In this document: piece after piece, positions 52,046 to 63,976 of the stretch | How the letters are laid out: each line of letters begins with the position of its first letter | Position numbering within the stretch: position 1 is the stretch's first letter | From: Sphaerisporangium sp. TRM90804 | Lineage (GTDB): Bacteria; Actinomycetota; Actinomycetes; Streptosporangiales; Streptosporangiaceae | Assembly (NCBI RefSeq): GCF_029846175.1 | Contig: NZ_JARWAC010000015.1 | Span: forward strand, 310,001 to 374,000 | Direction: 5' to 3' | Length of the DNA: 64,000 bases | Notes under the pieces: generated by a model | What the model saw: only the letters and a program-made list of their open reading frames with translations | The model's database searches: none | What the model was told of the DNA's origin: nothing | Program-made: the position numbers and the translations under genes

Positions 52046-53017
52046 TCACTCCCCGCCCACGGTGAAGACGACCTTCCCGAAGACCTCGCCTCGCCGCATC
52101 GCCGCGAATCCCTCCGCGGCCTCGGTCAGCGGCAGCACGCGGTCGACGAGCGGCCGCACGCCCGTCTGCCCCAGCAGGACGGCCAGCCGTCCGAGCTGCT
52201 CGCGGGTGCCCATCGTCGAACCGATCACCGACAGCTGCAGGAAGTACACCCGCGCGAGGTCGGCGGGCGGCACCGCGCCGCTGGTCGCGCCGCAGACGAC
52301 GATTCTCCCGCCCGGGCGCAGCGACTTCAGCGAGTGGGCCCAGGTGGCCTCGCCCACGGTCTCCATGACGGCGTCCACCCGCTCGGGCAGCCGGGCGCCG
52401 GGCTCGAACGCCTGGTCGGCGCCGAGTTCGAGCGCCTTGGCGCGCTTGTCCTCCGAGCGGCTGGTGACCCACACCCGGTAGCCGCCGGCCCGGCCGAGCG
52501 CGATGAGCGCGGTCGCCACGCCGCCCCCGGCGCCCTGGACGAGCACGGTGGACCCCGGCTCCAGCCCGGCCTTGTCGAAGAGCATGCGGTAGGCGGTCAG
52601 CCACGCCGTCGGCAGGCAGGCCGCGTGCTCGAACGACAGCGCCGCCGGTTTGGGCACCAGGTTCGCGCGCGGCACCGCGACCTTCTCGGCGAACGTGCCG
52701 TCGTGGACCTCCGAGAGCAGGGAGCGGCGGGGGTCGAGGGTCTCGTCCCCGTGTACGGGGGTGCCGATCACCGAGTGGACGATCACCTCGTTGCCGTCCT
52801 CGTCGACGCCGGCCGCGTCGCAGCCGAGGACGATCGGCAGCCGGTCCTGGCGGATGCCGACGCCCTTGAGCGTCCACAGGTCGTGGTGGTTGAGGGCCGC
52901 GGCCCTGACCGACACCGTGGTCCACCCGCCGGAGGGGGCGGGGTCGGGGACCTCGCCGAGCGTGAGGCCGGCGAGCGGGTTGTCGGCGTCGGTGCGTGTG
53001 CAGGTTACGGCGAACAT
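52046..53017 (-). CDS. MDR-family oxidoreductase (quinone oxidoreductase-like)
   Basis: A 323-residue medium-chain reductase: ALNHHDLWTLKGVGIRQDRLPIVLGCDAAGVDEDGNEV, then VLVQGAGGGVATALIALGRAGGYRVWVTSRSEDK as the NADPH site (GxGGGV). No structural zinc loop. The end is EAAEGFAAMRRGEVFGKVVFTV. It stands alone and is divergent from the secreted Ig-like gene across a 549-bp gap. Substrate unknown. Confidence 0.87.
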   Translation of the reverse strand: MFAVTCTRTDADNPLAGLTLGEVPDPAPSGGWTTVSVRAAALNHHDLWTLKGVGIRQDRLPIVLGCDAAGVDEDGNEVIVHSVIGTPVHGDETLDPRRSLLSEVHDGTFAEKVAVPRANLVPKPAALSFEHAACLPTAWLTAYRMLFDKAGLEPGSTVLVQGAGGGVATALIALGRAGGYRVWVTSRSEDKRAKALELGADQAFEPGARLPERVDAVMETVGEATWAHSLKSLRPGGRIVVCGATSGAVPPADLARVYFLQLSVIGSTMGTREQLGRLAVLLGQTGVRPLVDRVLPLTEAAEGFAAMRRGEVFGKVVFTVGGE

Positions 53018-58953: not shown

Positions 58954-60462
58954 ATGAACCCCCGAGCCAAGCGTCTGATCCTGCCCCTAGGCGGCGCACT
59001 CGTCGTCACGGGCATGATCGGCGTCACCCTCACCACCCCCGCCGGCGCGCAGGCCAAACCCGTTCCCCTGGAGTCGGGCAAGCTCGCCAGCAGCGGGATC
59101 GACGCGAAGGCCATCGCGGGATCCTGGACGCCGAGCAAGCTGAAGTCCGCCAAGAACTACCTTGAGGACTCCACGCTCTCCGGCAAGCTGAAGAAGAGCA
59201 CCAGCAAGGCGTCCGCGGACGGCAAGGCCGGTTCGGTCGCGCCGATCGGCGCCGGCGGCAAGACGGCCGGAGTCTCCAAGAACGTCAACCTGCCCACCAA
59301 CGTGGGCAAGGTGTTCTTCAACGTCGACGGCAAGCCCTACTGGTGCTCCGGCACGTCGATCCAGTCGAAGTACCGCAACCTGGTCGCGACGGCCGCGCAC
59401 TGCGTGTACGACACCGACAAGAACCGGTTCGTCGACAACTTCGTCTTCATCCCCGGCTACTACAAGGGGAAGGCGAACTGGGGCGTCTACGTCGGCGCGA
59501 AGGTCAACCTCCACGACGACTTCAAGGTCTACGAGGACTACGACTACGACTACGCGTTCGTCAACGTCTACAACGGTGTGAAGCAGACGGGTGACAAGGT
59601 CGTCGACAAGACCACCTACGACGCCGCCAAGGGCCCGAAGTGGGCCAAGGACGTCGAGATCACCAAGGACGAGTACCAGAAGTGCTTCGACGAGCACGGC
59701 GGCGAGACCGCCGACTGCTGGTCGAAGACGACGGGCGCCGAAGTCGTCCTCCCCTGGGGCACCGCCGGCGGCGAGCGGGTCGTCAAGGAGGTCTCCAAGG
59801 ACGTCTACGACGCGGCGCCCGCGGCCAACTCCAAGAAGAACTACGCCAAGGCCCCCGGCAAGACCGCCACGGAGATCGTGGACGAGGTCACGTACAAGAA
59901 CTACAAGGGCCTCGGCTACAAGAAGATGGTCGACAGCGCCTACACGATCACCCACTACTACGTGAAGTACTGGGTGAAGAAGTCGACGTCGGTCAAGTAC
60001 TACAAGACCGTCTTCTACCTCAAGACCTTCGTGGACGCCGGCCGCCTCGGCGACAACGTCGGCGGCCAGGGCTTCACCTGGAACCGCAGCACGAAGGCCA
60101 AGCAGTTCAGCTTCGGCTACCCGACCGCGGCGCACCTCGACGGCAACAAGGCTTACACCGGCGAGACCATGAAGTGGTGCTACGGCCAGACGGCCGCCGC
60201 CCCCGCGGTCAGCAAGTACAAGGCCGAGGAGCAGCTCGCCATCAAGTGCGCCTTCACGCCCGGCGCCACCGGCGGTCCGTTCCTGATCGTGTACAAGAGC
60301 AGCTCGCGGACCGGCTACCTCAACGGCGTCGTGAGCCTGACCCTCGACACCGACGGCAACAAGCGCTACGACCGCATCACCACGCCGTACTTCAACAGCG
60401 ACACGTACGGCATCTACAAGTACGCCGCCAACCAGTGGACCGGCAAGTTTACGAGCAGCTGA
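58954..60462 (+). CDS. Secreted chymotrypsin-fold protease homologue with Ser-to-Thr change and insertion
   Basis: A 502-residue exported protein. Signal peptide about 1-34, a pro-region to about 110, then a chymotrypsin-like fold. His149 (ATAAHC) and Asp199 (DYDYAFV) are in place, but the nucleophile motif reads GAT439GGP where the two paralogues have GASGGP and GSSGGP; ACC instead of AGC/TCC. Residues about 209-365 contain an insertion with repeated (E/K)hTKxxYD-like motifs. Cys pairs flank His149 and T439. Whether Thr supports catalysis is unknown; an inactive decoy or regulator is possible. Divergent from the SSI inhibitor. Confidence 0.85.
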   Translation: MNPRAKRLILPLGGALVVTGMIGVTLTTPAGAQAKPVPLESGKLASSGIDAKAIAGSWTPSKLKSAKNYLEDSTLSGKLKKSTSKASADGKAGSVAPIGAGGKTAGVSKNVNLPTNVGKVFFNVDGKPYWCSGTSIQSKYRNLVATAAHCVYDTDKNRFVDNFVFIPGYYKGKANWGVYVGAKVNLHDDFKVYEDYDYDYAFVNVYNGVKQTGDKVVDKTTYDAAKGPKWAKDVEITKDEYQKCFDEHGGETADCWSKTTGAEVVLPWGTAGGERVVKEVSKDVYDAAPAANSKKNYAKAPGKTATEIVDEVTYKNYKGLGYKKMVDSAYTITHYYVKYWVKKSTSVKYYKTVFYLKTFVDAGRLGDNVGGQGFTWNRSTKAKQFSFGYPTAAHLDGNKAYTGETMKWCYGQTAAAPAVSKYKAEEQLAIKCAFTPGATGGPFLIVYKSSSRTGYLNGVVSLTLDTDGNKRYDRITTPYFNSDTYGIYKYAANQWTGKFTSS

Positions 60463-60653: not shown

Positions 60654-61874
60654 ATGCTCCCCCGAGCGAAGCGGATCGCGCTCACACTCAGCGGCGCCCT
60701 GGCGGCCGCCGCCGTGATGCTGTCCGCCCTTCCGGGGCCGGCACAGGCGCAGAGCCGGGAGCTGCCGGCGCCCGCCGGGATCACCTCGATTCCGCTCGCG
60801 CAGAGCCAGGCAGACAAGCAGAAGGTCCTCGACTGGTGGACTCCGGAGCGGCTGAACCAGGCGAGCAGCTACGAGCCGAGGACCACCACCAGCGCGGTGC
60901 CCTCCCCCAGCGGGAGCGCGACCGCCGGCGCCACCGCCCCGGGCTCGGCCCTCGCCACCGCGGCGGCCGGCGCGCGAGCGTCGTCGTCGACCGGCGCGGC
61001 ACGGGCGGGAGAGGCCAGGGCCGTGGACGGCTCCGTCCCGCCGAAGGCCGCCCCCCGGACGCTCACCTCCAAGAACGTGAACCTGCCCCCGACCGTGGGC
61101 AAGGTCTTCTTCCGCATCGGCGACGCCGAGTACTGGTGCTCGGCGTCCTCCCTGCACTCCAAGAAGTACGGGAACCTCGTGGCCACGGCGGCCCACTGCG
61201 CGTTCGACGTCAAGACCGCCAAGCCGGTCGAGTACTGGGTCTTCATCCCGTCGTACACCGCCGGCGACCGGGCGACGCCGTACGGCGTCTTCGTCGGCCA
61301 CACGCTGAACCTCAGCGAGAAGTTCGCGGTCATGGGCGACTTCGACTACGACTACGCGTTCGTCACCGTCCACCACGGCTACCGCTGGGACCCGTACAAG
61401 GACGCGAACGGCGTCGTCAAGAAGGACCTCAAGGGCCTGCCCATGTACAAGGGCGTCGACACCGGTCGCCTGGAGGGCAACGTCGGCGGCCAGGGCTTCG
61501 CCTGGAACCGGGGGGCGGTGGTCGCGGCCTACGCCTTCGGGTACCCGGCCGGCCCCCATCCCGACGGAACACGGCCCTTCACCGGCCGGAAGATGGAGTC
61601 CTGCCTGACCACGGCCACCAGCAAGGTCGCCTCGGCGAAGTGGTCGCTGGAGAACGGCGTGCTCTTCAAGAAGTGCGCCTTCACGGCCGGGGCGAGCGGC
61701 GGCCCATGGGTGATCAAGTACAGCGGCGCCAAGCGCATCGGGTACCTCAACGGCGTCAACAGCCTGACGTGGGACCTCAACGGCGACGGCCGCTACGACG
61801 GGGTGTCCTCCCCGTACTTCACCACCTCGACCTACCAGGTCTACGCGTACGCCGCCCGGCAGAAGACCGACTAA
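60654..61874 (+). CDS. Secreted chymotrypsin-fold serine protease, short form
   Basis: A 406-residue exported protease. Signal peptide about 1-33 (ALAAAAVMLSALPGPAQAQ), a low-complexity Ser/Ala/Thr-rich pro-region (75-130), then the catalytic domain. The triad is complete: His181 (ATAAHC), Asp233 (DYDYAFV) and Ser348 (GASGGPW). It lacks the insertion of its neighbours; only 45 residues separate Asp233 from GGQGF, against about 170 in the others. The residues before the Ser (FTAG) resemble S1B/V8-type enzymes more than trypsin. ATG at 60654 follows GGAAGG. Confidence 0.92.
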   Translation: MLPRAKRIALTLSGALAAAAVMLSALPGPAQAQSRELPAPAGITSIPLAQSQADKQKVLDWWTPERLNQASSYEPRTTTSAVPSPSGSATAGATAPGSALATAAAGARASSSTGAARAGEARAVDGSVPPKAAPRTLTSKNVNLPPTVGKVFFRIGDAEYWCSASSLHSKKYGNLVATAAHCAFDVKTAKPVEYWVFIPSYTAGDRATPYGVFVGHTLNLSEKFAVMGDFDYDYAFVTVHHGYRWDPYKDANGVVKKDLKGLPMYKGVDTGRLEGNVGGQGFAWNRGAVVAAYAFGYPAGPHPDGTRPFTGRKMESCLTTATSKVASAKWSLENGVLFKKCAFTAGASGGPWVIKYSGAKRIGYLNGVNSLTWDLNGDGRYDGVSSPYFTTSTYQVYAYAARQKTD

Positions 61875-62440: not shown

Positions 62441-63976
62441 TTGAACACCCGAGTCAAGCGTCTCGCCCTCCCCATCGGTGGCGCCATCGCCGCCACCAGC
62501 ATGATCGGCGCCACCCTGGTCACGTCGGCCAACGCGACCACCGCCCCCGTCAAGAAGACCGTGTCGCTCGCGTCGGCGAGCACCGCGCAGAAGACCGCGG
62601 ACTTCTGGCAGAGCAACCGTGGCGCCAACCTCAGGGCCGCCGCGCAGTTCACCGGCGACCAGCAGACCTCCGGCAAGGTCAAGCTGGGCGGCGGCGACGC
62701 TGAGCCCGACGGCAAGACCGGCACCGTTCCCCCCACCGGTCTTGAGAAGGTCACCCCGACCAAGGTCAAGAACGTCAACCTGCCCAAGACCATCGGCAAG
62801 GTGTTCTTCACCGTCGGTGACAAGGAGTACTGGTGCTCCGCGTCGTCGGTGCAGGCCAAGTACCGCAACCTGGTCGCCACCGCCGCGCACTGCGTGTTCG
62901 ACGAGAACGTCCAGGAAGGCGCCCTCGACAACTGGGTGTTCATCCCCGGCTACTACCAGGGCAAGTCCCCCTGGGGCATCTACGTCGGCAAGACCGCGTA
63001 CACCCACTACGACTTCGCGGTGTACGAGGACTACGACAGCGACTACGCCTTCGTCACGGTCTACAACGGCATCTCCTACGCCGGCGAGAAGGTCGTCACC
63101 AAGGACGCCTACGACAAGTGGCAGGGCTACAAGTACGCCAAGGACACCGAGATCACGAAGGTCGAGTACGACAAGCTCGTCGACGAGTTCGGTTCCAAGG
63201 CGCCGGTCTGGACCAAGACCACCGGCAGCGAGACGATCGTCCCCTGGACGACCGCCGACGCCGACATCGCCACCAAGGAAGTCACGAAGGAAGAGTTCGA
63301 CAAGGCTCCCGCTGCGGGCTCCAACGTCAACTTCCAGAAGGCCCCCGCTCTGACGAACACCGAGATCGTCGACGAGGAGACCTACACCAAGTACGCCGGT
63401 CCCGGCTACAAGAAGATCGTCGACTCCGCGTACACGATCACGCACTACTTCGTGCAGTACAAGGTGAAGACGGGCAGCAGCACCAAGTACTACAAGATCA
63501 CCTACGTGATCGAGCTGTACAAGGACGCCGGTCGCCTGGGCGACAACGTCGGTGGCCAGGGCTTCACCTGGAACCAGAAGGTCGGCCAGCCGGTCTTCGC
63601 GTTCGGCTACCCCGCGGCCCCGCACCCCGACGGTGACAAGCCGTTCACCGGCCTCACGCCGAAGTGGTGCTACGGCAAGACCTTCGCCGCCAAGGCCGCC
63701 GCGAAGTTCAAGGCCGAGGCCCAGATCGGCCTCAAGTGCTCGATGACCGCCGGCTCCTCCGGTGGCCCGTGGCTGCTCAAGTACAGCAGCACCAAGCGTC
63801 TCGGCTACATCAACGGTGTCTCCAGCCTCATCGGTGACGCTGACGCCAATGGCCGGATCGACTTCAGCACCTCGCCGTACTTCGACAGCGAGACCTACGC
63901 GATCTACAAGTCGGCCGCCAGCCTCTGGTCCGGCAAGATCGTGGCCGGCGACGGCGACCTCGTCACCAAGGCCTGA
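62441..63976 (+). CDS. Secreted chymotrypsin-fold serine protease, long form with repeat insertion
   Basis: A 511-residue exported protease. Signal peptide about 1-32 (GGAIAATSMIGATLVTSANA), pro-region to about 105, then the catalytic domain with His150 (ATAAHC), Asp201 (SDYAFV) and Ser440 (GSSGGPW), all present. About 210-365 is the insertion shared with protease 1; it shows four spaced motifs: VTKDAYDK, ITKVEYDK, VTKEEFDK and IVDEETYTK. The TTG at 62441 has AAGGAG 5 bp upstream and gives the same N-terminus as the paralogues; earlier in-frame starts do not. Confidence 0.92.
   Translation: MNTRVKRLALPIGGAIAATSMIGATLVTSANATTAPVKKTVSLASASTAQKTADFWQSNRGANLRAAAQFTGDQQTSGKVKLGGGDAEPDGKTGTVPPTGLEKVTPTKVKNVNLPKTIGKVFFTVGDKEYWCSASSVQAKYRNLVATAAHCVFDENVQEGALDNWVFIPGYYQGKSPWGIYVGKTAYTHYDFAVYEDYDSDYAFVTVYNGISYAGEKVVTKDAYDKWQGYKYAKDTEITKVEYDKLVDEFGSKAPVWTKTTGSETIVPWTTADADIATKEVTKEEFDKAPAAGSNVNFQKAPALTNTEIVDEETYTKYAGPGYKKIVDSAYTITHYFVQYKVKTGSSTKYYKITYVIELYKDAGRLGDNVGGQGFTWNQKVGQPVFAFGYPAAPHPDGDKPFTGLTPKWCYGKTFAAKAAAKFKAEAQIGLKCSMTAGSSGGPWLLKYSSTKRLGYINGVSSLIGDADANGRIDFSTSPYFDSETYAIYKSAASLWSGKIVAGDGDLVTKA

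Follow-up and report, generated by a model that had tools for sequence, protein, structure and literature searches.

The SMIPP-S of scabies mites (PDB 3h7o), inactivated paralogues of the trypsin fold, constitute a multigene family. The serine protease homologues of snake venoms have lost catalytic residues several times, and the excerpted account (PMC3123349) gives one Ser195Thr and five Ser195Asn replacements among them. In bacteria, the closest precedent that we have found for the coexistence of an active and an inactive member is the MamO/MamE pair of magnetotactic bacteria, in which, according to the consulted portion of PMC4794232, an inactive trypsin-fold protein stands beside an active one and the triad has been lost repeatedly. 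Here we compare with these systems a gene of the soil actinomycete Sphaerisporangium sp. TRM90804, hereafter P1, which lies in a stretch of 64,000 nucleotides (the window) and encodes a long trypsin-fold protein with threonine at the position of the nucleophile. The finding is broader than this single Ser-to-Thr substitution. We consider it somewhat probable that P1 is a selected pseudoprotease whose intact cleft binds without cutting, the bound partner probably being a divergently encoded inhibitor (SSI), or substrates on behalf of a short neighbouring paralogue (P2).

P1 (58954..60462, plus strand) starts with ATG at 58954 and ends with a stop codon at 60460-60462, as read from the sequence and its translation; its product of 502 residues has a signal-peptide-like N-terminus and is presumably secreted. 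Re-reading of the coordinates and the codon bore out that ACC at 60268-60270 encodes Thr439 in a GATGGP motif (GGC GCC ACC GGC GGT CCG, 60262..60279, plus strand), and the positions of the catalytic histidine and aspartate are, as had been claimed, occupied by His149 (59398..59400) and Asp199 (59548..59550), both on the plus strand. The predicted fold is that of a two-barrel chymotrypsin, specifically of an Anisep/AL20-type trypsin. His149 and Asp199 are kept in all ten of the Thr-bearing P1 genes described below, together with Gly437 (the oxyanion, Gly193-type glycine), the Ser214-type residue and the cysteines of the 42-58-type disulfide, Cys131 and Cys150. The bacterial chymotrypsin-fold proteases Anisep (PDB 3wy8) and AL20 (PDB 3cp7) have a serine nucleophile where P1 aligns Thr439, and because of this threonine we group P1 with the relatives of this fold that lack Ser and do not class it as a serine protease; its score against the Pfam Trypsin family PF00089 (19.6 bits) is below the gathering cut-off of 20.6.

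Anisep and AL20, with about 218 residues, are also devoid of the arm of some 150 residues (residues 209-360; 59578..60033, plus strand) that is inserted in P1 and absent from P2, and a structure comparison of the arm yielded no convincing match. In genome G006, the P1 insert is unusually diverged (42%), and a multicopper-oxidase-like protein of 1561 residues (L139:4004-8686, minus strand) of the same genome contains a piece of about 40 residues that matches a portion of the P1 arm at 68-70% identity. The distance to the described pseudoproteases can be seen at the active site as well. MamO and MamE belong to the Deg/HtrA branch, of which P1 is not claimed to be a member, and MamO has a residue other than glycine at position 193 and a degenerate triad, whereas P1 keeps Gly437, His and Asp. 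In the snake venom homologues, as far as the excerpts of PMC3123349 go, His57 is the residue most often replaced and the single threonine is sporadic, whereas the P1 family keeps the histidine and the threonine of P1 is fixed in a clade.

That clade comprises the P1 genes of 10 of the 11 Sphaerisporangium genomes, the window's own included; P1 was not found in the eleventh, G008, a 170-contig draft that is 99% complete. Threonine is present in all 10 genes, and also in the four closest protein-database clusters (73-85% identical to P1), which may overlap with the counted genomes; six named Sphaerisporangium contigs (S. corydalis, S. fuscum, S. melleum, S. album, S. perillae and a MAG) were not counted again. 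A sequencing error, previously considered as a source of the threonine, is contradicted by the ten separate assemblies, that of the window among them, which all have Thr. Codon 439 is ACC in every one of these genes while neighbouring synonymous codons differ, and in a tree of 40 rows, built with column 439 removed, the Thr genes form one clade (support 100/99). Since all ten genes have threonine and form a single clade, Thr439 is real.

Beside this clade, the same tree places 24 Ser and one Asn positional orthologues from other genera, their orthology being supported by gene order and by the divergent SSI gene. In the alignment of orthologues that the sequence-only reading had proposed as a check, the threonine is conserved within Sphaerisporangium and not outside it, where the orthologues with Ser are what that reading had named as a refutation; the Ser and Asn of the other genera make Thr a clade-specific derived state. 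The ancestral AGC serine codon would have been changed to ACC before the sampled Sphaerisporangium P1 genes diverged. Members of the Thr clade are closely related, with a mean core identity of 0.90 and 187 of 247 core columns invariant, so that fixation of the threonine is by itself weak evidence of selection; the family-wide pattern considered below is the stronger evidence. The gene is nonetheless free of stops and frameshifts in the window and intact in all ten orthologues, and the constraint ascribed to it is reflected in a median NG86 dN/dS of 0.30, a rough measure with GC-rich codons, as compared to 0.23 for P2 (45 pairs each).

By its sequence, P1 fits a pseudoprotease: the fold is that of a protease, a canonical catalytic residue is missing, and the gene is intact and constrained. 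The same residues also fit, on paper, the layout of a threonine protease, with Thr at the equivalent of position 195 and His and Asp kept, and the retention of every catalytic requirement except the serine counts against the pseudoprotease reading, being compatible with a Thr nucleophile as well. P1 could accordingly be a slow or specialised threonine protease that uses Thr439 with His149 and Asp199, perhaps by way of acyl intermediates that persist for long or with activity towards a single special substrate, an option that we regard as rather unlikely. It draws on the invariance, in 10 of 10 Thr genes, of the other catalytic elements checked and on the small number of replacements that separate Thr from Ser P1 genes within residues 107-500, namely T116N, Q378R, S439T and G482S (agreement of at least 90% within each group, with G482S in nine of the ten Thr genes), gap columns 268 and 326 also separating the groups. 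That threonine rarely functions as a nucleophile in the trypsin fold, as the sequence-only reading held, agrees with the greatly compromised activity of engineered S195T trypsin and thrombin in the consulted part of PMC8695361. For trypsin, a clash with the 42-58 disulfide has been proposed, and removal of this disulfide helps somewhat (PMC8695361, PMC3835919, both in excerpt) and is reported, in the available text of PMC3835919, to yield a threonine-using trypsin; for thrombin, the former source stresses that the methyl group clashes with the substrate and notes that S195T thrombin is still covalently bound by a chloromethylketone (PMC8695361), which leaves room for a slow Thr enzyme. The relief of removing the 42-58 disulfide is, however, absent from P1, both cysteines being kept in 10 of 10 genes, and the Asp, Asn and Ala found at this position in paralogues, as well as the Asn in one P1 orthologue, are no such nucleophiles. 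Given that sister lineages have Asp, Asn or Ala there, P1 is best read as having a non-catalytic role and has presumably lost its cutting activity.

The extent of these replacements can be judged from the GTDB family, in which 115 of 315 genomes match P1 at E <= 1e-95. From among the places listed, 80 loci were fetched from 79 of the 115 matching genomes, with six more listed genomes left out, and yielded 346 family genes after two weaker hits had been dropped by score; as the loci were chosen by similarity to P1, the sample leans to relatives of P1. The nucleophile position is occupied by Ser in 148 genes (one of them the broken, misaligned gene of L060), Asp in 151, Asn in 11, Thr in 10, Ala in nine, Gly in two, and Leu and Ile in five each, and was unread in five. 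Aspartate, present in 151 of 193 scored non-Ser genes, is therefore by far the commonest replacement. Both His and Asp persist in 179 of the 183 genes with Asp, Asn, Thr, Ala or Gly and in 147 of the 148 Ser genes (in the exception, nothing aligns with the His position), as compared to only 3 of 10 genes with Leu or Ile. Among genes of the Asp type, each of the two residues is found in 150 of 151, a conservation that is strong but not unique, being matched by 21% of core columns. Outside Sphaerisporangium, Ser is absent from 135 of 167 scored long genes and present in 82 of 125 short ones.

The predominance of aspartate, with His and Asp kept, together with the binding of a metal by the bacterial trypsin-fold pseudoprotease MamO (PMC4794232, in excerpt), would suit the notion that the Asp, Asn, Thr and Ala forms have acquired a new chemistry or ligand, such as a metal held by His-Asp-Asp or an ion pair in which His and Asp are locked, with Thr as a lineage variant. 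Thr, Ala and Gly are poor metal ligands or none, and we deem this very improbable. Two other replacements deserve mention. Where the position is occupied by Asn, for example in L092:6026-7582 and also in L094, L095 and L114, Gly follows directly, and the Asn-Gly sequence is prone to deamidation to Asp. In L062, L063, L064, L068 and L069, all from Sphaerisporangium genomes, Ala occupies the position in the short gene that comes last in the array, a separate loss within this genus in five genomes.

An active site released from constraint is exemplified by the Leu/Ile clade, in which His is kept in 4 of 10 genes, Asp199 in 5 of 10, and Ser461 (the Ser214-type residue), Gly441 and Pro442 in none. 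The fetched stretches of this clade (L121, L126, L127, L129, L132-L137) contain one family gene each, with a decayed active site; the Ser214-type residue is Ile in 10 of 10, and the clade provides a natural control for the loss of constraint. This control bears on the view that the Ser-to-Thr change was neutral or slightly harmful in a redundant paralogue heading to decay. Each array indeed contains several paralogues, loss of the nucleophile has taken place at least several times, a Sphaerisporangium genome (L060) has a broken array gene, and fixation of the threonine says little in itself; yet the ten Thr orthologues are intact, their dN/dS is close to the P2 value, and the active site of P1, unlike that of the Leu/Ile clade, is kept, which makes decay improbable in our opinion.

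A tree of 90 rows implies at least 19 state changes at the nucleophile position, 11 if only Ser and non-Ser are distinguished. Parsimony with equal costs gives 6-11 losses of Ser and 3-5 regains, and with the cost of a regain set threefold, 13-16 losses and one regain, the ranges being unchanged without the broken gene. Both serine codon families are represented at the site (AGY in 118 genes and TCN in 30, the broken gene counted), and the codon reconstruction puts Thr one step from AGY. A tentative idea, possible in our view, is that the catalytic serine has been switched off and then on again over evolution, in arrays that keep active sites complete in all else, by single codon steps among Ser (AGY), Thr (ACC), Asn (AAC), Asp (GAC), Ala (GCC) and Ser (TCN), that inactive members can regain the protease state, and that the Thr form of P1 is a living intermediate between the serine codon families. 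Ser genes nested among Asp genes are seen in L103, L111, L070-L073 and L131; these are possible cases of either regain or gene conversion, and the apparent regains in general may stem from gene conversion between tandem copies.

The tandem arrangement is evident in the window itself, where P1 is followed by the short P2 (60654..61874, plus strand; GASGGP, Ser348 encoded by AGC at 61695-61697) and the long P3 (62441..63976, plus strand; GSSGGP, Ser encoded by TCC at 63758-63760); a fourth paralogue just past the window (G000:C8:374333-375421) has Ser too. The contrast originally drawn between P1 and its serine-bearing paralogues is therefore correct for P2 and P3 and does not extend to the long genes of the family. 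P2-type genes have kept their serine, in 30 of 30 tree representatives and in 63 of 63 genes assigned by the nearest representative, and His-Asp-Ser is found in 120 of 120 proteins made up of P2 and 119 of its best 120 of 425 database matches. Ser and non-Ser members occur together in 66 of 80 loci, non-Ser members only in 13 (10 of which are the Leu/Ile loci) and Ser only in one, with some arrays ending at contig ends or at the edges of the fetched stretch.

On the other side of P1, the minus strand carries a gene for a subtilisin-inhibitor-like protein (SSI, PF00720; 58032..58685), divergent from P1 and with Lys at the putative reactive site. Further upstream of SSI there is a zinc-type quinone oxidoreductase gene (52046-53017, minus strand), relatives of which occur in 17 of the 80 loci. 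The divergent SSI gene recurs in 30 of 35 P1 loci, adjoining P1 in 29 and separated from it by another family gene in L084, whereas no SSI gene was found in the five that remain; of the other 45 loci, five have one, next to a short Ser gene. The association of SSI with P1 loci (Fisher p = 1e-11) is to be read with the reservation that the loci are not independent and are confounded by common ancestry. At the reactive site, which we take to be residue three of the conserved Cys motif, nine of 10 Thr loci have Lys or Arg and one has His, and the 20 SSI-containing loci whose P1 has Ser or Asn show R (5), M (5), L (4), A (2), T (2), H (1) and E (1). Such variety (K, R, H, M, L, A, T, E) argues against taking the binding of SSI by P1 as established; from the gene adjacency and the kept cleft we infer that P1 may bind SSI, or substrates for P2.

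Under the favoured reading of P1 as a selected pseudoprotease, the fold, the oxyanion loop, the cleft and the pair of His and Asp would have been retained for binding instead of cutting. The tandem array is one in which the short P2 remains an active-looking protease, whereas loss of the nucleophile recurs among the long, arm-bearing paralogues. Most probably, the cleft and arm of P1 would bind the divergently encoded SSI and/or substrates and would thereby tune the activity of P2. The proposal that P1 is a pseudoprotease is strengthened by the fixation of Thr in the genus, the intact gene and the preserved site, and limited by the Ser in orthologues of other genera; the decoy role suggested along with it is conceivable.

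P1 thus presents a natural, clade-fixed threonine in an otherwise complete site, with Ser orthologues in neighbouring genera, and the two forms make a natural pair for the question of why the nucleophile is serine and not threonine. With its many replacements, a partner type that keeps the serine, both serine codon families and an adjacent inhibitor gene, the family offers a bacterial system for asking why active and inactive proteases coexist and whether the loss of a nucleophile is reversible.
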